The position numbers and the translations under genes are program-made. A DNA stretch of 64,000 nucleotides from Cliona cf. orientalis (taxonomy: Eukaryota > Porifera > Demospongiae > Clionaida > Clionaidae), in assembly GCA_963930775.1 (NCBI GenBank), contig OZ005699.1, forward strand, positions 3,741,501-3,805,500. Direction: 5' to 3'. The stretch's first letter is position 1. Each line of letters opens with the position of its first letter. The notes beneath the pieces were generated by a model. It did not search any database, was not told the origin of the DNA, and was given only the letters and a program-made list of their open reading frames with translations. Shown in pieces: positions 23,385 through 36,979 of the stretch.

Positions 23385-24157
23385 CTAATAGCCACTATTA
23401 AGGTACCATTAAATTACGTGGGCGTGAGCGTGAGGAACGAATCGTGAGGGGGCGTGGCCGAAGAGGCCATACGAGTGCTTTTGATCGAAGGTGGGCGTGT
23501 CGAGAATCGGCCAGGGATGATTATGCGCGTGTAATTAGCGACCGGAAGTGGCCCCTAAAGAAAAGACCGGTAATTGCCCACATCAAAGCAAGATCAAAGC
23601 ATTCTTTTTTAACTATTAACCGCAACGACTTATTACACACTAAGTAGAAAAAAAAAGAATTTAAAGTAAAGTAATATTTGAGACTCTGGGAAAACATTCA
23701 CGACAAATAATTGATATGAGCATGCAGAATAGGTCTTAACTAGAAGTTTCTAGTAGGAAGCGAAATTTTGATTCACACCTTAGAATTAAAATTACAGCCC
23801 TTTAAAGTTTTCCTATAAATTAAATATGTGACCGTCCACAAGAAAACCATGCATATAATGCGCTGGATATCAATCTGAGATACAAGCCAAAATAGTTACC
23901 TATGGTGATAACTATCGTTCACTTAACTAACTATACTCGAAAACCACGGAAATCTAGAAATTGTCCTATTTCTAGAAATAATAAAACCGTATGAGTCAAA
24001 CGTTTCCAGAAACTGTTTCAGAAACCATGACGTCCGTGACTACTGATAGCAGCGCGCGGCCTGGCCTTGGCCCTTGCATGCTCCGCCCCCGCCCTCCCCC
24101 TCCCGTGCGTGCTGCCTAGCGCCTGGGCACGAGATCGAGACTGACCAGGCTGCTGTC

Positions 24158-27100
24158 ATGGCCGAGATACGGTGGGATGATGATGATGATGGTGACATCG
24201 CTGGAAGCGTGGAGCTCGAAGATCAAACTATGGAAGAGGAAGATGAGCCTACTGAGTGAGTCTGTACAATACTGTCAGTAACACTAGCTCGGAGACTGAC
24301 CACCGCACCCTACTCAAGTACTGATATTTACTATATACTGAGTGATTCTTCCCGGTGGCAGGCAGTCTCTGGCTCACACATTAATAAACTATTGGTAGTA
24401 CAGGCTCAGTGAATTGTGATATTTAGTCCGACAGACTGGCAGAGCAGCCAGGAGTAACTTCGTTGCCAGGCCCTTTGACGGGGAGGAGAAAGGCCTGGTC
24501 CGGTACCTATTGCACGTGCATGTGCCTACTACCCCAAGAAAATTTAAACCTGGGGTGTCTCAAACGACTGACAGTGTACGTTTCCACCCCCCCCCCCTTC
24601 TCCAGCGGCCTAGGGTACTATACATCGATATGACAATAATATAACTATAGGTATGAATATTGGCACTAGTATTAGCTATTTGATTAGCAGCCACTTGAGG
24701 TGTGGTCCTAAACATAGTAAAAAGGACGTTTACGACATTTTACTATACAGCATGATGTTAATTGTCACATCGTAACCAGATCCTTCCTCTCTTAATTGTG
24801 GTCCTAAACATAGTAAACAGGACATTCACTATGACATTATACAGCATGATGTTAATTATCACATCGTTACCAGTCCCTTTCTCTCTAATTAATTGTGAAG
24901 GGGATGCATGGTACCTTGATTAGCCCAGAAATGGGCCTGAATACTCGTGGCTACTCAAATTAACTTTTATATCTACCCTTTGTACAATAAATACAGCATG
25001 AATCACAGAGTGCAGGCTGCTGACCATGGACATTCAACTGTCTTTGACCTTAGAAGCAAACGGTGGCATGAACAGCAGGCTAGTTCAAGGCTGTCTTTTG
25101 GAAATGAGGTATATTGTATGGCGGCTAATTTGAAATCTTTTTTTACAATAATTATTATGATTTATATCAAGGTTCAAGCAGCGCTAGATAATGCACCTAA
25201 GTTAGTGGCATCTCGGCTTGCACCAAGAACCAAGAAACTTTATAATGAGGTATAGCTATAATAATAATTATAATAGTAGATATATAGCTAGCTATAATGC
25301 TTGCTGGGGGTATATGCTTATAAATAACTATAATTTTAATTAGGGGAAGAGTTCCTCTTGTCCTTGCTATATTTGAACTTTCAATTTTATACAGAAATAT
25401 CAACTGCTAGTGAATTTTGCAGCAACTATGGACCCTCCAGTGATAGTTAATATTGAACATGAGCCTGCACCACCTCAAGTGATCATTGCATTTTTTAGTG
25501 AGTGATTTAATTGCATAAATCCTCGTAATGATGATAATTATGTAGCTGCATGCATGCATGCACATGTACTCGGCGCTTGAAAGTGCTATACATGTCAGTG
25601 TAGCTGCATTGTGAGAGAATGTTTATTGCATTTTGCTATCATAGCACACAACTTATAGCTAGTATACAAGAAAGCTTGTGTCCTAGCTTTGGACATCTGA
25701 TCACTCATTGTAGAAAATTAATGTATATATATACTATTACGTGTTATAGGAGCAATGTCATATGGTAAGATGATTGAGGTGAAAGACAAACATGGAGTTC
25801 CAATCAAGACTAGTAATGGAACATCTCGTGTGGGTAGAGGATGGGGATACGACACATTCCGGTCATCATTTCATGCACTTAAAACTGTGCATAGAATATT
25901 CTACGGTGATGTTTGCTATGAAGTTATAAATGGCAAGGCGATAGGAAACCCATTGATGTGCGCTGAAGTTATTGTATCCTCATTTAATTTATGCATTACA
26001 CACTCAATGACATGGAGTTATATCATGCACTATTTCTTTAACATTGTTTGTCTATGGTAGGAAGTTTATCACTCAATTTTACGTGGACTTACCCGGCAAG
26101 ATTTCTGTTCTAGCCATGGGAGAGAAGTTGTTTTGCCTGAGTCAGGTTCTCTGTCTCTGACTTAATAAACATCAATCAGTATGTGATGCACCATGCATCA
26201 GAAGAAAATGTTAGAAATTGGGCGTATATTCTTCTATCAATTGGGCTCTTTTTGCGGCAAGATGAAGCAGCAAATCTGGTTCTCAGTGACATTTCATTGG
26301 CTAGAAATCCCTCTACAGAGAGACCTCTCCTAACAGATGATGGCCTGCCACATTGTTTGGTTGTTATGATTATCCATGACAAAACTAACAAAGATGGTCC
26401 AGGTATGAAGTTTTGTCGTCATGGAATTCTGTTGTTGTTATAATATAATAAATTGAAGAGCATATAGCTGTGTAATTAATATTATTATCATTGATTGTTT
26501 CTACAATATTATATTGCAGGAAGGCAACTCTATTTGAGAAGGAATGAGAAGAATCGTGGTCTTTGTCCAGTGATAGCAATAATGATGTGGTTGTCCATTC
26601 TAAGGTATAATTTTGATTATTATTTGTTTCAGCATTTATATATTATGAATTGAAATCATTACAGGGAAAAGTATCATTATCGACAAGGATATGTGTTCAC
26701 TTCAATAAGAAGGGGTCAGTTAGGCTGTAAGCTCTCTGCACCTCATTATTTACAAATTGTGAAGAATTTGGCGAAAGGTTAGTTTGATATTGTATGCTAG
26801 TTATATTATAATAGATTCATGCAAATTGAATCATGCTGTTACCGTGTTAATTATTATAATGCTTGCAGGTGCAGGATTACCTCATTGGAATGAGTATGGT
26901 ACTCATAGCATGAGGCACTCTGCTGCATACTTTGCATCATGGATAGGCATTCCCCCTGAGACCATCCGTGTAAGCTATTATACAACTTTGTTGCAGAATC
27001 ATCATGAACATTAACTATTATAGCCATGTTTATGATATATAATATTATTTATACTACATGCAGATACTGGGACGGTGGAATTCTACTGTATACTTCACTT

Positions 27101-27216
27101 ACGTGAAATCTGCAGATAAAGATAAAAGAGATTGGATGAGTCTGAATGTGGAGAATGCAGGTGATCCTGTTGAACAAAACATGGACATATTTGGTTCAGC
27201 TAGAACCAGCCATTAA
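24158..27216 (+). CDS. Tyrosine recombinase (Crypton/DIRS-type), 11 exons, 449 aa
   Basis: The exons are 24158-24255, 24997-25108, 25172-25249, 25395-25497, 25750-25967, 26061-26126, 26180-26402, 26520-26604, 26665-26777, 26869-26969 and 27064-27216. All borders are GT..AG and one frame runs throughout. The first exon (acidic, MAEIRWDDDDDGD) is the least certain, and Met at 24998 is an alternative start. A core-binding region is suggested by RLAPRTKKLYNEKYQLLVNF. The catalytic domain shows Arg251 (GLFLRQDEAANL), His378-x2-Arg381 (THSMRHSAAYF), and Trp404 with Tyr412 (LGRWNSTVYFTYVK). This is the R...HxxR...W...Y set of phage-integrase-like recombinases, and the GRW.S..Y..Y form resembles DIRS and Crypton enzymes. 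The expected reaction is breakage and rejoining of DNA through a 3-prime phosphotyrosine. No reverse transcriptase accompanies it, which favours a Crypton-like DNA element. No disabling mutation is seen. Confidence 0.8.
24702..24880. repeat. Tandem duplication in the first intron of the recombinase gene
   Basis: Two copies of about 85 bases (gtggtcctaaacatagtaaa ... cagcatgatgttaatt ... cacatcgtaaccag) lie head to tail, with small differences. Confidence 0.85.
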
Positions 27217-28073
27217 CTGTCAGTGATGTGCATATCAGACACTCTTATACATTCGTGACAAACCTTGTCTTCTTGTTTTCATCATGATATTGCTGTACAG
27301 TAACTTGGTTGTTATTATGACCATGCGTATGCATGCACATTATGATACATGCACGATCGATTCATAAAACACAGTAATATCAAATTTTACAGTATTAGAT
27401 TATGTATTATATATTATAATAAGCATGAGCTGAGGATCAGTACACAAACTCTGAATAGTCATTCCACATACTTTCCTTATTGCCAGAAAAGGGGGTTATT
27501 GTGAGGGTAATTCTCTGTGCAATGATTCACAGTCAAAGTTTACGTGCACCGTCTGTCAAAGAGTAGTGTACCAGCTTTGACATCGCTCCTATTATAAATA
27601 GCGTGATTGTAAAGCATTGACACAATTTCTAATGAAGTGCCTTCTCCTGTACGATTGCACACATGCTTAATACATTAACCTACTACCTCGGCGAGGAAAA
27701 CACGTATTCTACCGCCATCAAATTTTATTTTTCTAATGAAGTGCCTTCTCCTGTGCGATTGCACACATGCTTAATACATTAACCTAATACCTATACAAGG
27801 AAAATACGTACTCTTACTGCCATCAAATTTTATTATTAAAAGTTGAATAGAGTATAGATTAAGCCTGCGGTATCATTATTATTTCCTTGATAACCCAAAT
27901 TTATATAATATTATAGCTAGCTATGGGACTATAATGGAGGCTAATTATCATAATAATTATCATTATTATAGTTTCTTATGGTAGGCGGAGCTGATAATAT
28001 TATGGTAGTCTACCATTAGCGCATGCGCACTGCCACTCGCAGCGCGGGCTCACCCGGTCAACGTGAAAATAAT
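27217..28073. other. Spacer between recombinase gene and the next gene
   Basis: No exon seen. It contains the tandem duplication at 27626-27836 and, just before the next ATG, a GC-rich stretch (gcgcatgcgcactgccactc) typical of a promoter-proximal region. Confidence 0.5.
27626..27836. repeat. Tandem duplication, unit about 105 bp
   Basis: tttctaatgaagtgccttct, then cctgt(a/g)cgattgcacacatgc, through gccatcaaattttatt, is present twice in direct order. It lies about 400 bases downstream of the recombinase stop codon. Confidence 0.9.
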
Positions 28074-31000
28074 ATGCCTGTAAGAAGACCAAGAAGGAAA
28101 GGGGCAAGCGGACCGAAGACGAAGAAAGCTAAAGTGGTAAGTTAAAGACACGTTCGGTGAGCGTTATATAGAGTTGGACTCTGGCAGTATCTAACTCGGA
28201 ACGCAGTTAGTTATCTTAGTTACGTACCTATTCTGTGCCGTATCATGGTTGCATGTTAGCTACTAGTGAATACTCTTTCTTTTTGTAGCTATATGAAAAT
28301 ATAGGGTGTGATTCTCTGTATGGTTTGCACAAGTACTCATGGTGGGTTTATATTCTAAATTTAGAATAATAAGCAATCGTGAGCCTTTGTACAAACTTTC
28401 AAAAAATATTCAGTACAAAGTTAGGCCACTCCAAATAAATTTCCTGTTTCCCGTCCTGGAAAATACTAATGTAGTATGCGGGCGGGCGGTAAATCCCATT
28501 ATTTATGTAGTAGCAAGACCTACAGGAAACACTTAAACTAATTAATTATCACTCACTTGAGGCAAGGTACTAGCTAGACCCTTTTCCGGGTGTGGATAGA
28601 GTGGGTAGAGGTCGTCAGGCAAAAAAGGGTCGAGCTTGATAGACTATGCGTGTACAAAAGTAAATGCGGATATAGCATACATGCAAAAGTACTAATAATG
28701 GAAAATTTCGTGATATGCCAGAAAAGGATGCGGGCGGTGGACGGGAAACAGGAAATTTATTTGGAGTGGCCTTATGGGATATTTGCTGTTTGAGCTCATT
28801 GACATTATTGCTCTATTTAATAAGTAGTATACCTATTAGCCATGTTATCTGCAAAAGGGTCACTGTTGTCATAATTTGTATAGCTGCACACTGATTAGCA
28901 ATAATTGCATGCACACTCTAGGTGTGTTTATAATAGAATACTAGCCAATCGTGAGCCCTGTTAGCAGTTAATTTTACATTACATTTAACATTCCCAATAC
29001 ACATGCACGAAGGAGGAGCTGGTCAGGATCCTCTTTGCAGTTTGCATATGCACCTACTCCTTTGTGGGTCATATGTTTAAAAATAGCTGCTAAGCCCTTG
29101 TACCAACTTAAAAGTGTTCTGTCCTAAAGATGTACCTTTGAGTATACACTAAAAATATATTATATATAGTATCTAATTATTAGCCATATTAATTTTATTA
29201 TTATAGTGTGCACTCTAGTCTTGTATACTCTGAGTCACTTTCACAGTACTAGACTAAGTATAATAATATAGTACCTCCTGAGCCCCTTGTATCACCACAC
29301 TTAGAAATGGCAACTAGACTAAGTGGGATAGCCATACGTTATTAACGTGAAGTGCACTTAACAGTGGATTATATAGTTACTGTATTAAATCATACCATAA
29401 TAATATTAAATATTCTGATAATTAATTAATATTGATAGGGGATATAATATCATTAAAGGGGTAGCTACATTCTCTCTATAGTGTTCACGCATACTCTCAG
29501 TGGGGTTGTATTATATAGTTAGAATAGTATGCAATGTTAAGCCCTTGTACCAACTTTCAAAAAGTGTTTTGTACTAAATAAGTTGCAAACAATGGCCACA
29601 TGCCTAGGAGTGCACTGAAATATTGTATGTATTAATAGTAATTAATTACTAGCCACACACTGTCAGTGGAAATGCTGTTACAGTAGCCACTTATATTAAA
29701 TGCTTCATTCCTTCTAGTTCGCGCTAGTACACTACTATATGTAGTATCCAATCCTAAGCCTTTGTACCAACTTTCAAGAGTATTTTAGTCAAGGGATGAA
29801 GTTGCAGTCTATTCGCAGTTTGCATGCATACTCTGAGTGGCATTGTATGTAGTAGTACACCCTGAGCCCGTGTGTCCCCACCTTTATAACAATAGCAGGT
29901 ATAGTTCACAAACAGATACTATTACAGCATTATAGCATATATCCCATTAATTTTTAATCATAGTACAGTTATTAACCACGTCAATTTGTATTAAAATGAT
30001 TAAAGAGGTATACATTCTGTCTATAGTTTGCACGCATACTCTCGGTGTGGGTATATTATATAAAATAGAATAGTACCCCATCCTGAGTCCTTGTACCAAC
30101 CTTCAGAAACTGGTGAATAAAAAATAAAATAAGGGCCATAAATTATACTTGCCTGTTGTGCTCATTGTATTATTAATTAATTAGAATGATGAGGATAATG
30201 ATAGTAGTATTGAAGCCCCTACTATGGTAACTAAAGCTCAAAGGAAAAGTAAGGTGAGCATAGTTGATAATTATTATTAGGCTGGTATAGCTAAGATAGG
30301 TGTTGTAAATATTGTCAAGTGATTGATAATTTTACTCGAGACTTTCAATCGCCTGCTAACAACACAAGCATAGTTTTGTTGGATTAAATTTATTATTATC
30401 ATGTGTTGATCCAATATGCCTCATTGGTACATTGGAATGTATAGTATGATAACTGATGTTATAGGCTATAGATGACGATACACAAGAACTGACACGTGAA
30501 GAGAGTGAGAAGAGTGGCAGTGAGTCTCCTGCAGTTGAAGATGTCAGTCCAGTACAGAAGGGTAAAGTAAGTGCACTATTTTGGTTTAGTATTGGCTTAC
30601 GTGTCTGACTTATGTACCCATGCATGCATTCATGCAGAAGAAAACAGTCAAGAAGATACAACGAAAGAGAACAGAAACCACTTACTGCACAAATTTACGT
30701 GATGCTATGCGAAACAACCTCCCTTTACGAGTGAATCGAAGAGGAGTAATCTTCAATTCTGATGGTGAAAGGCCCTCTTTTGCAATTGATGAATTGTATC
30801 GAAATCGACGAATAGGACTTTCCTACAAGCAGATCGGAAAGAAACTTGGAATTGATCCGGATCGAGAGAATGTGATTCATGTTTATAAAGCACTACGTGA
30901 AGAAGCAGAAGAAGAATTACCATCAATTGAAGATATAGATGCTCCATCCAAGGTGACTCCACCCACTCCACTCTGGTATTTGTTCGATTCAGAGTTGGAA

Positions 31001-31732
31001 GCCATTGCACAGACCGCATTGCCAAATCCTGTTGATATAAAAAATGTGAAGCCTCAGCTAAAGCTCTTTGAACGGCTTGGCACTCATGCTGGATATTCAC
31101 TTTCTATCTTTATGCAAGTAGGTGATGTGCTTCTAGAAGAACTAAAACGGTCCCTAAACTGCAACCCAGGATCCCCAGTCCAGAAACTTAATATCTGGAC
31201 AAACAAACTTCCTATAGCTCTATTGACCAAATCATGGGAAATTCAGCGTAGTGTAGCTGAAGCTGCATATATGATGTCCAGCTATTGGGCACCTGACCAG
31301 GGAACATGCAAATGTGGTGCCATTCTCACTCTACGGTTTGGCTGGAAGGTATCGCCAATATCATATCCCTCCTTCTTTTGGGGATGTGCTGCGTTTGATC
31401 GACGTGATATTGGAAAACATGATCAGGCGAAACCACACCGTGCTACACTGTGGGAAGTAATTAGCCGATCATTGCATGCTATGACTGACAAGGAAATAGA
31501 GGTGCTGAGGGAGAAGCTAACGACACTTGGTCAGACATGGATGGAAAGGAATGAGGAACAAGATAGTCCTCAATTAGTGGCCGATTTACAACATGCAACT
31601 GACCGGTATGGTGGTCCAAAGAACATGATCCCATATAAGAGTCAATCCCATGTTGCAAAACAACTTGAGATCATGCAAAAGAAAATTAATGAACACATGG
31701 ATTCAAACAAAGAACAAGAGAAAGATTCTTAA
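28074..31732 (+). CDS. Unrecognised basic protein with zinc-ribbon-like motif, 442 aa
   Basis: The exons are 28074-28136, 30185-30253, 30465-30566 and 30638-31732, all joined in phase 0. The first intron is about 2 kb and carries a MITE and a repeat series. The N-terminus is very basic (MPVRRPRRKGASGPKTKKAK), followed by an acidic/serine stretch (residues 22-78) and a second basic patch (KKTVKKIQRKRTE). Around residues 130-165, FAIDELYRNRRIGLSYKQIG could form a helix-turn-helix. About residue 287 onward reads TCKCGAILTLRFGW, then FFWGCAAF. This resembles GRF or topoisomerase-type zinc ribbons, but only three of four cysteines are evident. The C-terminus is helical and charged. Position and strand suggest it is a partner of the recombinase, perhaps the DNA-binding component. 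That is inference only; I do not recognise the family. Confidence 0.65.
28330..30115. repeat. Intronic series of a roughly 90-base motif
   Basis: The elements gcatactct(c/g)agtg, then ttagaatagtatgcaat, then gagcccttgtaccaacttt, recur in variable form at about 28330, 28915, 29045, 29215, 29485, 29740, 29820 and 30030. A further copy, interrupted by a MITE, lies at about 32060-32600. The spacing is irregular. The series lies almost entirely within intron 1 of the 442-residue gene. Confidence 0.75.
28424..28771. mobile_element. PIF/Harbinger-like MITE with TTA duplication
   Basis: GGCCACTCCAAATAAATTTC at the left end is inverted at the right end (GAAATTTATTTGGAGTGGCC). TTA flanks both sides (28421-28423 and 28772-28774). 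The internal sequence is closely shared with 59854-60126. It is inserted in intron 1 of the 442-residue gene. Confidence 0.9.
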
Positions 31733-32113
31733 ACATACTGCGTGCAACTGTTACAACAATGTCCTGGCACTCAAAATCTAATTATGCTCAGTCTATTATT
31801 ACATTAATTTGCTAGACTATATTATTATAAATATGATAGTGTTTCATAACAATTATGCTTATTAAATAAAATTATTGCAAAGCCTGAACCTTGTATCGAT
31901 CGCCATTGCACTTTGCAGAAACGGCAGCTCTTAATGTATAATAGTATTATAATTAATTTTATAGTTCATGAACGGATATCCGAAGTATCCGGCTCGAATA
32001 TATATTATACACAGTAATTATAATAATATTATGATCAAGTGATATAAAATTGATACAGTCTGTCTGCAGTTTGCACACATACTCTCAGTGAGTTAGTATT
32101 CTATTATAATTAT
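31733..32113. other. Downstream region of the 442-residue gene
   Basis: AT-rich. The first 130 bases contain an AATAAA-like signal (taaataaaatta near 31861). No gene seen. Confidence 0.5.
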
Positions 32114-32114
32114 A

Positions 32115-32535
32115 TGTGACAGGATCTGAGAAAAGGGACCATTTCGCGCTATTCCCGAATTTTCATTTTAAAACGCTTATATCTCTGGAACCATAGCAGC
32201 TATGAACTTCAAACCTGGCATGAATATTCTTCAATCATCCAACTACACTCGCTGCAAATCGCGGACCCCGCCCACTTCCGGTGTGGGCGGGGCGAGCGCG
32301 CGCGTCGATCGCGTTCGAAAATCGCCGTTTTATGCCTCACTTTGGCGGCTCACCGCTCGGGACAGGAGGCTTGCTCAGGCTTCTAACGTTGGATCTGTGA
32401 AGTAGAAGGTCCAAACTGCTAATAAACCAAGCCAGAAGCCTAGGGCTCTTGAGGCCTTGAAATGGTGACAGTTTGAAAAATGGCAAAAAAAACGCGTTTA
32501 GCGCGAAATGGTCCCTTTTCTCAGATCCTGTCACA
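32115..32535. mobile_element. MITE with TGTGACAGG inverted ends and TA flanks
   Basis: TGTGACAGGATCTGAGAAAA (32115 on, continuing GGGACCATTTCGCGCT) is exactly inverted at 32500-32535. The arms are 36 bases. TA flanks both ends. The element splits one copy of the intronic gagcccttgtaccaac repeat, so it inserted later. Its ends share TGTGAC, a GAGAAAA core and TA flanks with the 10.6-kb element that contains it. Confidence 0.9.
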
Positions 32536-32621
32536 TAATAATAATATTATGCAATCCTCAGCCCTTGTACCAACTGTCAGAAACTGGTCAATAATATTAT
32601 TATAAATGACCCGCAGAGATA

Positions 32622-33705
32622 TTATCTTGATTGTTTCACTTCTTTATCATAGAGTTGACTGGCAGTAAGCTTGTGAAAATGGGAGATACATGCTTCTGGG
32701 CCTCCTGGATAATCCTTCATAAAGCCATAGAGCTTAAGCCATTTACAGCGTGCTGCTTTGGTGCTTTTATTTCTTTGAAACTCGATAGGAAGTTGGTTGA
32801 ACGGCTTAAGTACTTCATCACCCATCTCCATTTGATTAAAAAATTTTCTAAGGTCAATACCAAGAGTGTTAAAATGCTGTATTACTGCCTGTGATAGAAT
32901 ATCTGTAGACGTGCATTCTTGCTGCACATTACTTGAAGATGCACTGGTTTGTCGTCCTTGATTATCGGAATTGTGTCCAAGACCAGCACTGGTAGTCGTA
33001 GAGGCATTATCACGACAATGCATGTTTGCACAATATCTTTCAAACTGTGCTTTTAGGCTCACAATATCTTCTTCTAATTTATCTATTTGCTGAACAAATC
33101 TTTGCTCCCGTGCCTCCAATTCTTTAATGCGTTCTGTTTTTTCTTGGTTTTCTTTACGCAAATTTTCTAATAATTCCGATTGCTCATTGCAGCTGGTATC
33201 ATCCATTGGCTCTCCTAGGCGGTGAACAACAGTTACAGTTGATGGAGAATCATTGTAGGTCTGCTGCTGGTATGCAAGAGTAGGGGTCATCGGCTGACAG
33301 CCGATAAATGACTCAACAGCTTTTATCAATGAATCTGTGTTGATCCACGTGCCATCAGGGAGCATTTTCCCAATGAATGTTGTGATGGCTTCGTCCAAAT
33401 CTGATCCTACATGATATATATTAATTATTATCAATGATTTAATTTGCAAATGAATGATGAATGATGAATGATGACATACAGCTCAGAACTCTCTCTACTG
33501 TGATCCTGCCCCACCCGGGCCCCCCCCCCCCCCCCCCCCCCCCACCCCACAAGCCAGAGGCCCTTGCGGTATGTATACCTAGTCCATTGCACTGACGCTG
33601 GGCCTGATGATTGTACTCGGTAGCTGATCTATCCTGATCCTGAGTAGCTTCGTTTTCATCGTTTATGGCCGACGCCACATCTCCTTCGTTCGCCTCTGCT
33701 TCCAT
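32622..33705 (-). CDS. Coiled-coil protein of unknown family, two exons, about 304 aa
   Basis: Exon 1 is 33705-33579 and exon 2 is 33406-32622, joined in phase 1 (GT at 33578, AG at 33407). The intron contains a run of 24 C (33520-33543 on the plus strand). The N-terminus is acidic (MEAEANEGDVASAINDENEA). A coiled coil follows in the middle (LLENLRKENQEKTERIKELE to about DIVSLKAQFERYC), then a Ser/Thr-rich linker. The C-terminal block has FQRNKSTKAARCKWLKLYGF and YPGGPEACISHFHKL, which could be a small DNA-binding fold. I do not recognise it. It is transcribed towards the 442-residue gene and is the third gene inside the TGTGACC-ended interval. A role in oligomerisation or end binding for the recombinase is a guess. 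Confidence 0.65.
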
Positions 33706-34582
33706 CTCAGTGTGGATCTATGTAGTTTAATAGATCAAATCAATACGTGCGCGCTAATTTCCTATTGGCTGAAACCGCTTCGAAATGTCACCTGACATCA
33801 GAAACGTGTCTGATTGGTCGAAACGCGGGTTTAACACGCGTTTCTGAGGAAATGTGAACGATTTTCACTTTTTGATATAGATCGATAGAGGAATCATTCT
33901 TCTACACAAATATCTGCTTCGTAGCTTCTAGAACGCTATACTTACCGAGTTATGGCTCGAAGAAGTCAGGCGAGTAGCTACATAGAGCGGCCATGATACG
34001 GAGCCGTTGCCATAGTTGCAGGTAGGCAAACACGGCAGCTGCACAGAAAAAACTCTCCAGCCACTTCTTTCTTCGATTCTGTGTACTAACGATCTTTAGA
34101 ACGCTTGTCTTCTTGTTCTCTTCCATCGAAACGCTGGCTGCTGCTCTCGTTCGAGCGTTTTGGCAGCCAGCTAGCTCATTGACTTGGTGGGCGGGGCCAC
34201 GGATTTACCATAAACGGCGAGTATACGGACTTCCGCGTTCAACGTACGTTGCAACGTTCATTGCAATTTTTTTGCAATACTTGAGTACGGGCGATCCGGG
34301 TATATTTTTGCTCATATCTCCATGACTACACGGGCTAGAGACTTCAAATTTGCTGGAGCAATAGTTCAAAGGTTGTAGTTGGTAATGGTGGCCTTAACTC
34401 AAAAAATTTTTTCAGCGCATTATGCATGGTTTTCTCGTGGACGGTCACATATTATTATGTATGTGCACACAATATCATACATACTCATCAGCAGGAAATG
34501 GTATGCAACAGTGTTTCATTAAGGCTTTGTACATACTAGTACAGGTCCGTGTAAAATGTAATTGCAACCTGTGTGCACATAA
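33706..34582. other. Upstream region of the coiled-coil gene and inner right end
   Basis: No gene seen. 33750-33850 has a CCAAT-like pair in opposite orientation (cctattggctgaaa, gattggtcgaaa) close to the ATG of the minus-strand gene, a plausible promoter. The TGTGACC inverted end lies at 34411-34449. Confidence 0.45.
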
Positions 34583-34819
34583 GGCCACTCCAAATCAATT
34601 AGTTGTTTCTCATCCCTTCTTGATTTCCGCCCGCATGTATTTCCATCAGCACTAGCACAATACAAAAGTATACCGCCTCGATTTTTTGGACTGCTGAACT
34701 TATGGTTTTGACGACCATTTCCCATCAAACTTGTGAATAAACGACCATTTCCAGCCGCCTGCCCGCATCAGTTTTTGGCTCAGGGGGGATGAGAAACAAT
34801 GAATTAATTTGGAGTGGCC
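34583..34819. mobile_element. PIF/Harbinger-like MITE with TAA duplication
   Basis: GGCCACTCCAAATCAATTAG and its inverse (AATTAATTTGGAGTGGCC) form the ends. TAA flanks both sides (34580-34582 and 34820-34822). The interior differs from that of the 28424 copy. Confidence 0.88.
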
Positions 34820-35052
34820 TAATATTTATTGTTGAACTAGACTTTGTAGCTATACGGTAGCTGACAAGTGGTACATGGCCCACTGGTGTGTGCCACACAA
34901 TAGTAAGATTTGCCGCGGCTTTTGAACAATAATGCTTCATATAACTTGTATGGTTACATTCTATGGTCCTCCATACAAATGACATGGTATTTCTTAATTA
35001 CAGGTTGTAATTCTTTTATCTTATGGTGTGGTTTAGCTTGAAAAAAACTTTA

Positions 35053-36975
35053 ATAATCTAATTCATGGAGGATTTGGGAGCACTTGCGGACATAATTTTT
35101 ATACGGGCACGCAGAATGGGTCAAAGTAACAGGTTTGACCGGATGGAATTTTGATGCACACCTTAGAATTAAAGTTATGGCCCTTTGAAGTATCCCCATA
35201 TGTTTGTATAGGAAGCCATGCATTTGCAATGTTTTCCGCCCACGCACTACGTGACGGGCGTGGCCACGCGCGCACAGTAACGTGACGACCTCTATCCACT
35301 TTTGTCAAAATTGAAGTTTAGGCTGTCTGCTTGCATTGTATGGGTCTAGTATGCATCCAGCTCAACTATGTGGTGGTCAGGACTGTTTTTTTCTGCTTAG
35401 TGTGTCCGCTTCCTGTTAAACATTAAGTAGAAAAAAAAAACAAAGCTTAAATAATGTAATTCATGGGGGATTTGGGAGCATCTGGGGACATAATTTTACA
35501 TGGGCACGCAGAATGGGTCAAAACTAGAGATTTGACTTGAAAGAATTTTGATTCACGCCTTAGAAACGAAGTTACGGCCCTTTGAAGTTTCCCATGTTTG
35601 TACAGGGAAGCCATGCGTTTGCAATGTTTCCGCCCACGCGCTACGTGAGCACATAAACGTGACGACCTTTACCAACCTTTTGACAAAATTGAAATTCAGG
35701 CTGCCTGCTTGCATTGTATGGTTCCACTATGCACCCAGCTCGACTATATGGTGGTTTTTGGACAATTTTTTTTTCTGTTTAGTGTTCTGGTCTCCTTGTT
35801 AAACACTAAGTAGAAAAAAAAACTGAACTTAAATAATGTAATTCATGGGGGATTTGGGAGCATCTGGGGACATAATTTTTACATGGGCACGCAGAATGGG
35901 TCGAAACTAGAGATTTGACCTGAAAGAATTTTGATTCACGTCTTAGAAATGAAGTTACGGCCCTTTGAAGTTTCCCATAATATATTTGTACAGGGAAGCC
36001 ATGCGTTTGCAATATTTCCGCCCACGCGCACATAAACGTGACGACCTTTACCAACTTTTTGACAAAATGGAAATTTAGGCTGCCTGCTTGCATTGTATGG
36101 TTCCACTATGCATCCAGCTCGATTATATGGTGGTTTTTGGACAAATTTTTTTCTGGTTAGTGTTCTGGTCGCCTTGTTATACACTAAGTAGAAAAAAAAA
36201 CAAAACTTAAATAATGTAATTCATGGGGGATTTGGGAGCATCTGGGGACATAATTTTTACATGGGCACGCAGAATGGGTCGAAACTAGAGATTTGACCTG
36301 AAAGAATTTTGATTCACGCCTTAGAAATGAAGTTACGGCTCTTTGAAGTTTCCCATATGTTTGTACAGGGAAGCCATGCGTTTGCAATGTTTCCGCCCAC
36401 GCGCTACGTGAGGGGTGGGGCCACGCGCGCACATAAACGTGATGACCTTTACCAACTTTTTGACAAAACTGAAATTTAGGCTGCCTGCTTGCATTTTATG
36501 GTTCCACTATGCATCCAGCTCGATTATATGATGGTTTTTGGACAATTTTTTTCTGCTTAGTGTTCTGGTCGCCTTGAAGAAAAATAATTAAATAAATAAT
36601 CTAATTCATGGGGGGTTTGGGAGTACTTGGGGACATAATTTTTACATGGGTACGCAGAATGGGTCGAAACTAGAGATTTGACCTGAAAGAATTTTGATTC
36701 ACGCCTTTGAATTGAAGTTACGGCCCTTTGAAGTTTTACTATATGTTTGTATAGGGAAGCCATGCGTTTGCAATGTTTTCCGCCCACGCGCTACGTGAAA
36801 AACGGGGAATCCCCGTTAGGCGCGCGCACACAAACGTGACGACCATTACCTACTTTGGTCAAAATTGGAGTATGGGGTGCCTGCTTGCATTGTATGGCTC
36901 TACTAAGCATCCAGCTCAACTATGTGGTGGTTTTGGACATTTTTTTCTGCTTAGTGTTCTGGTCTCCTTGAAAAA
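35053..36975. repeat. Five-unit subterminal tandem array, period about 380 bp
   Basis: Units starting ctaattcatggggga / ggatttgggagca lie at about 35053, 35458, 35837, 36218 and 36600. Each contains gggcacgcagaatgggtc, gttacggccctttgaagt, ccatgcgtttgcaatg, a GC-rich cgcccacgcg block and tgcttgcattgtatgg. The same unit occurs about three times in the 2.2-kb element (40653-41780). Short open frames that recur in each unit are a by-product of the repetition. Confidence 0.9.
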
Positions 36976-36979
36976 AAAA

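Follow-up and report, generated by a model that had tools for sequence, protein, structure and literature searches.

Genes at the locus

The window, by which we mean the entire stretch of 64,000 nucleotides of Cliona cf. orientalis DNA analysed here, contains three predicted genes between an inverted pair of repeats, in the order and on the strands proposed in the initial annotation. The first (24158..27216, forward strand) encodes a tyrosine recombinase, YR, and was modelled by hand as approximately ten exons (24158-24255, 25009-25108, 25172-25249, 25395-25497, 25750-25973, 26061-26402, 26520-26604, 26665-26777, 26869-26969 and 27064-27216). The second, G2 (28074..31732, forward strand; exons 28074-28136, 30185-30253, 30465-30566 and 30638-31732), encodes a protein of 442 amino acids with a CxC...C...H motif, and the third, G3 (32622..33705, reverse strand; exons 33705-33579 and approximately 33405-32622), is convergent to both and encodes a coiled coil and a conserved C-terminal helical domain.

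The catalytic-type residues reported for the recombinase in the initial annotation are visible as FLRQDE, THSMRH, GRW and YFTY in the window copy and in copy B, one of the related loci found elsewhere in the genome (see below), with equivalent residues in copy C; at locus E, HSCC stands in place of HxxR. The reading frame of the window YR, however, is broken near 26145, such that the segments on either side are out of frame with each other, whereas copy B is continuous there. Because of this break, the window copy is probably dead or no longer autonomous, to judge from its sequence. The window and copy B recombinases share 72% amino acid identity over 396 codons, with differences of 0.23, 0.14 and 0.58 at the first, second and third codon positions. 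The Pfam family Phage_integrase matched YR at 19.8 and 23 bits, under its curated cut-off of 27.1; for the copy B protein it was the only match up to E = 10, with no match to DUF3435. A protein search with YR scored none of 3,918 candidates.

In its confident structure model G2 consists of helices and a beta hairpin, and it is predicted to be DNA-binding on account of a modelled fold like that of DNA-binding proteins together with a possible zinc site. No peptidase was found by Pfam among G2 and G3. Two satellite arrays, inverted in orientation, flank a G2 relative at L045 (G000:C17:5168143-5168973) whose open frame has 382 amino acids; neither YR nor G3 was found within the 20 kb fetched there. 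The first intron of the window G2 gene holds 34-bp perfect inverted repeats approximately 280 bp apart with TTA at both edges (28421-28775), which is probably another nested MITE; a diverged relative of it lies at 34579-34823.

A split MITE around the three genes

The inverted pair (23823-23855 and 34421-34453) aligns over 33 nt at 97% identity, or over 43 nt at 93% in a second alignment, and TA adjoins both outer ends (23825-23826 on the left and 34450-34451 on the right). The pair, described in the initial annotation as 38 bases long with TA outside, is thus present; the same annotation took it for the ends of a recombinase transposon of 10.6 kb. Within the window alone a 13-mer of the repeat is not conspicuous, as it has two matches with up to two mismatches, a number equalled in 17 of 100 shuffles. 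Across the whole genome (216.8 Mb, 149 contigs), TGTGACCGTCCACNAGAAAACCATGCAT is matched 258 times in forward and 260 times in reverse orientation when up to three mismatches are allowed, against none for the reversed-pattern control, and these TGTGACC matches are often paired approximately 650 bp apart.

We read both ends of 29 such paired copies, 11 of them from the first 20 loci listed (two of which showed a single end) and 18 picked because both ends were listed; one of the 29 (L010) belongs to a related subfamily. Every one of the 29 has the same 2 bp on either side (23 TA, two AA, two AT and two TT), and 27 are 625-697 bp long, the other two being approximately 1,000 bp. The first 91 bp of these copies align to 23827-23917 of the window and the remainder to 33859-34449, with no gap and with CG alone counted twice. 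Leaving out the two copies of approximately 1,000 bp and counting L062, which is identical to L060, only once, we found that all 26 distinct copies are contiguous across the point at which the window sequence is split, the site being CG in 22 and CA in four. An intact copy reads AACTAT-CG-ATTTTCAC, and the window reads AACTAT-CG-TTCAC...GTGAA-CG-ATTTTCAC. The TGTGACC repeats are therefore the ends of a non-autonomous transposon (MITE) of approximately 679 bp, which in the window is split into parts of 91 bp (23827..23917, forward strand) and 591 bp (33859..34449, forward strand), and the intact MITEs are empty sites of the recombinase element. Empty sites had been anticipated in the initial annotation as a bare TA; they exist, but as uninterrupted MITEs, with the junction at a CG inside the MITE. 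A larger element can thus seem to have terminal inverted repeats that in fact belong to a MITE used as its target.

The initial annotation had also raised the possibility that TGTGACC occurs only as part of a tandem unit of approximately 380 bp, which is not what we found, since it forms the ends of a MITE. A tandem repeat of approximately 380 bp lies to the right of the element (34988-36978), and pieces of the same unit lie to its left (23626-23817). More widely, the genome holds a large group of terminal inverted repeat (TIR) elements that start with TGTGAC(C/A) and carry a GGAAAAC-like motif approximately 15 bp in, examples being the outer MITE of the window (23827-34449), 32115-32535, L046:6373-8331 and L047:227-2285. 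Genome-wide, matches to the TATGTGACCGGATTTGGGAAAACCC pattern number 862 in forward and 860 in reverse orientation (controls, 1 and 0), and the TGTGACCGTCCAC family shows a 2-bp flanking duplication that is mostly TA, and also AA, AT or TT. No autonomous partner of the TGTGAC(C/A) group was identified.

Limits and ends of the recombinase element

The recombinase element itself is 9,941 bp long (23918..33858, forward strand), with one CG at its left junction (23916..23917) and another at its right junction (33859..33860). Its ends were defined from three copies only, namely the window copy, copy A (C1:28.29 Mb) and copy B (C3:4.21 Mb), all of which read CG-TTC on the left and GTGAA-CG-AT on the right; the ends of loci C and E were looked for and not found. 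Each of the three bodies is flanked by CG, which is all that the two junctions have in common. The 21-mer at the right end, TTTCTGAGGAAATGTGAACGA, has three exact matches in the genome, which are these three copies, and four more at three mismatches (reversed control, seven). At the left end the three copies fit all 30 specified positions of a 37-position pattern that was built from those same copies. In each of them, the similarity between the left 300 bp and the reverse complement of the right 300 bp fell within the range of 200 shuffles, and the inverted bases at the window ends number only about five to seven, beside the CG.

YR starts 240 bp inside the left end and reads inward. Between the two lies a cluster of three TTTC/GAAA palindromes (23969..24025), with TTTCTAGAAA at 23969, GTTTCCAGAAAC at 24002 and GTTTCAGAAAC at 24015; GTTTC-N(0-3)-GAAAC occurs two, three and three times in the window, A and B elements, never more than 110 bp from the left end. 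At the right end, TTTCTGAGGAAA (33841..33852) is identical in the three copies, with 6 bp between it and the element end. The palindromes and TTTCTGAGGAAA look like candidate protein-binding sites. Inside the element is a nested MITE of 421 bp (32115..32535) with TA on both sides, which belongs to the TGTGACAGGATCTGAG family, the same as that of the MITE hosting copy A.

It could be argued that the TGTGACC repeats are nevertheless the true ends of an autonomous transposon of 10.6 kb, from which the MITEs of approximately 679 bp arose by internal deletion, given that the MITE ends and the outer ends in the window are of one family with TA outside. We consider this highly improbable: related bodies occur in a second MITE family (copy A) and in another repeat (copy B), each time with the same two limits; nothing is missing when the halves of the MITE are put together; and the equal 2-bp flanks of the 29 MITEs are ordinary behaviour for a TIR transposon, whereas CG borders the bodies of the window copy, A and B. 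The element ends are those at 23918 and 33858.

Other copies and linkage of the three genes

Searching the genome with the window proteins, we found seven G2 loci and four G3 loci. When the copy C protein served as query, five G3 loci were found at E = 0.001 (the window, A, B, C and E); a sixth match (E = 0.005) covers the coiled coil only. YR, placed by tblastn in the fetched regions, is present in the window and at A, B, C and E and was not detected at D and F. Thus YR and G2 lie beside G3 at five of five G3 loci, and both YR and G3 lie beside G2 at five of seven G2 loci, counts which start from G2 or G3 loci, so that copies of YR without partners elsewhere would fall outside them; at D and F, G2 is present, and YR and G3 were not found in the 20 kb fetched. 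A, B and E have their genes in the order and on the strands seen in the window. At locus C, G2 runs opposite to YR and G3 is approximately 6 kb distant, and the trio at locus E is weak and decayed; both loci are more diverged than the window copy, A and B. The expectation that further copies would share both ends and genes was borne out for the gene set, and the window copy, A and B do share termini, but these are not TGTGACC.

Over their main body alignments copies A and B share 91-92% identity, and less within tandem repeats. The alignment stops at the same two positions, and the flanks outside them show no similarity at E = 1e-5. Their G2-G3 intervals contain tandem repeats of 126-128 bp; B has approximately five copies, and A has two arrays of about two copies each. 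The window has other repeats, which are interspersed, at 28308-32601. The copy A body lies between the two halves of a MITE of a different family, TGTGACAGGATCTGAG, with outer flanks AA/AA, and its left junction has one extra C. Copy B lies inside another repeat, and a search with its two flanks joined yielded 111 matches, of which many continue through the junction. All eight fetched copies of this repeat are uninterrupted, and all have approximately 10 nt (GCCATATCTC or near) that are absent from B beside the left junction. Given the extra C in A and the missing nucleotides in B, only the window offers a perfectly clean empty site, those of A and B being near-clean.

Low copy number, and the retention of open G2 and G3 frames in diverged copies, might be expected of an old block of host genes spread by segmental duplication rather than by mobility. 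This explanation is hardly credible, as the copies have sharp common ends and interrupt multicopy repeats that are found intact at other places, and A and B have no common flanks; the existence of empty sites already contradicts it.

Interpretation and proposed mechanism

The window very probably contains one copy of a low-copy, Crypton-like family of YR transposons carrying YR, G2 and G3, whose 9,941 bp are inserted into a TGTGACC MITE of approximately 679 bp. This reading starts from direct observations, namely the element limits, the common ends, the uninterrupted target copies and the gene trio at five loci. It retains from the initial annotation a recombinase transposon with partner genes, seen as the same gene set at several loci, and reassigns the TGTGACC ends to the target MITE.

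Alternatively, a different transposase may drive the movement of the element, as for MarCry or Tec1/Tec2; such composites have been described by Kojima and Jurka (PMC3212892, in the part drawn on here), the functions of G2 and G3 are unassigned, and the genome harbours an abundant TIR family for which no transposase was found. We regard this as quite improbable. No DDE transposase family was found by Pfam for YR, G2 or G3 up to E = 1, one of the 31 members of the G2 alignment, scanned up to E = 10, matched Transposase_32 (E = 0.17), the confident G2 model is made up of helices and a beta hairpin, and the element's own ends lack long inverted repeats.

The best reading of the transposon is that it integrates at CG-centred sites and has two constant partners, as seen at the trio loci. 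Two of the three copies with known ends (the window copy and A) are inserted in MITEs; the window and A targets have CGATTTTC in common, and the B target has CGATAGTC. We propose that YR would excise the element as a circle, in which the joined ends would read GTGAA-CG-TTCAC. The circle would then integrate by strand exchange at the CG of a target resembling AANNNNCGATNNTC (judged from only three sites), and a single CG would remain at either end of the element. G2 probably binds DNA, either at the element ends or in the target, and the coiled coil of G3 probably serves for oligomerisation, so that the two proteins together may act as accessory or targeting factors for YR. As the ends, the junction dinucleotide, intact targets and both partner genes can be read, the way in which a YR transposon of an animal integrates can be tested directly with defined junction and target sequences.

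AP-2 is a developmental regulator of animals and is not known outside them. The structure model of G2 bears a possible resemblance to the AP-2 fold; however, there is no sequence similarity to the TFAP2 (AP-2) DNA-binding domain by Pfam or profile comparison, and a scan of the same genome with TF_AP-2 (PF03299) up to E = 1 did not match G2. PF03299 matched one AP-2 transcription factor gene in four pieces (G000:C12:466936-469799), in keeping with an animal genome. That G2 is a remote AP-2 relative guiding the recombinase to CG-centred targets, and that AP-2 descended from, or was captured by, a recombinase transposon, seems unlikely; if true, this family of YR transposons would show the role of such a DNA-binding domain in a mobile element.

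Comparison with known systems

In the part of Kojima and Jurka (2011, PMC3212892) drawn on here, Crypton boundaries are described as hard to define, with no terminal repeats found in animal Cryptons and terminal direct repeats of 4 or 6 bp in fungal ones; Cryptons carry YR alone or, in some oomycete elements, YR with a C48 peptidase. The element resembles them in its tyrosine recombinase with R, H-x-x-R, H/W and Y, with a Phage_integrase match that is here below the cut-off, and in being a DNA element without long terminal inverted repeats for which excision as a circle is proposed. It differs from them in having three genes, a length of approximately 9-10 kb and recognisable ends with a common CG, and it has no Pfam match to the Crypton-related domains DUF3504 or GCR1_C. 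The contrast with animal Cryptons that the initial annotation drew from terminal inverted repeats falls, since those repeats belong to the MITE; the partner genes stay as a difference. What is new relative to Cryptons is thus the two partner genes beside YR, a YR DNA transposon itself being of a known kind.

Fungal Starships, as far as they are covered in the part of PMC12506042 used here, likewise have YR first at the edge and reading inward (240 bp from the end here, approximately 350 bp in Sanctuary), more genes behind YR, and empty sites. Unlike Starships, the element has no DUF3435, is approximately 10 kb long compared with 170-196 kb for Sanctuary, and has the same partners at each locus, whereas Starship cargo is variable.

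Tec1/Tec2 and MarCry, again going by the portion of PMC3212892 drawn on, also combine YR with other genes in a DNA transposon. They carry a DDE transposase, with YR probably only resolving intermediates, whereas none was matched in the three window proteins. MarCry, moreover, has TIRs of its own with TA duplications, whereas the TIRs in the window are those of the target MITE.
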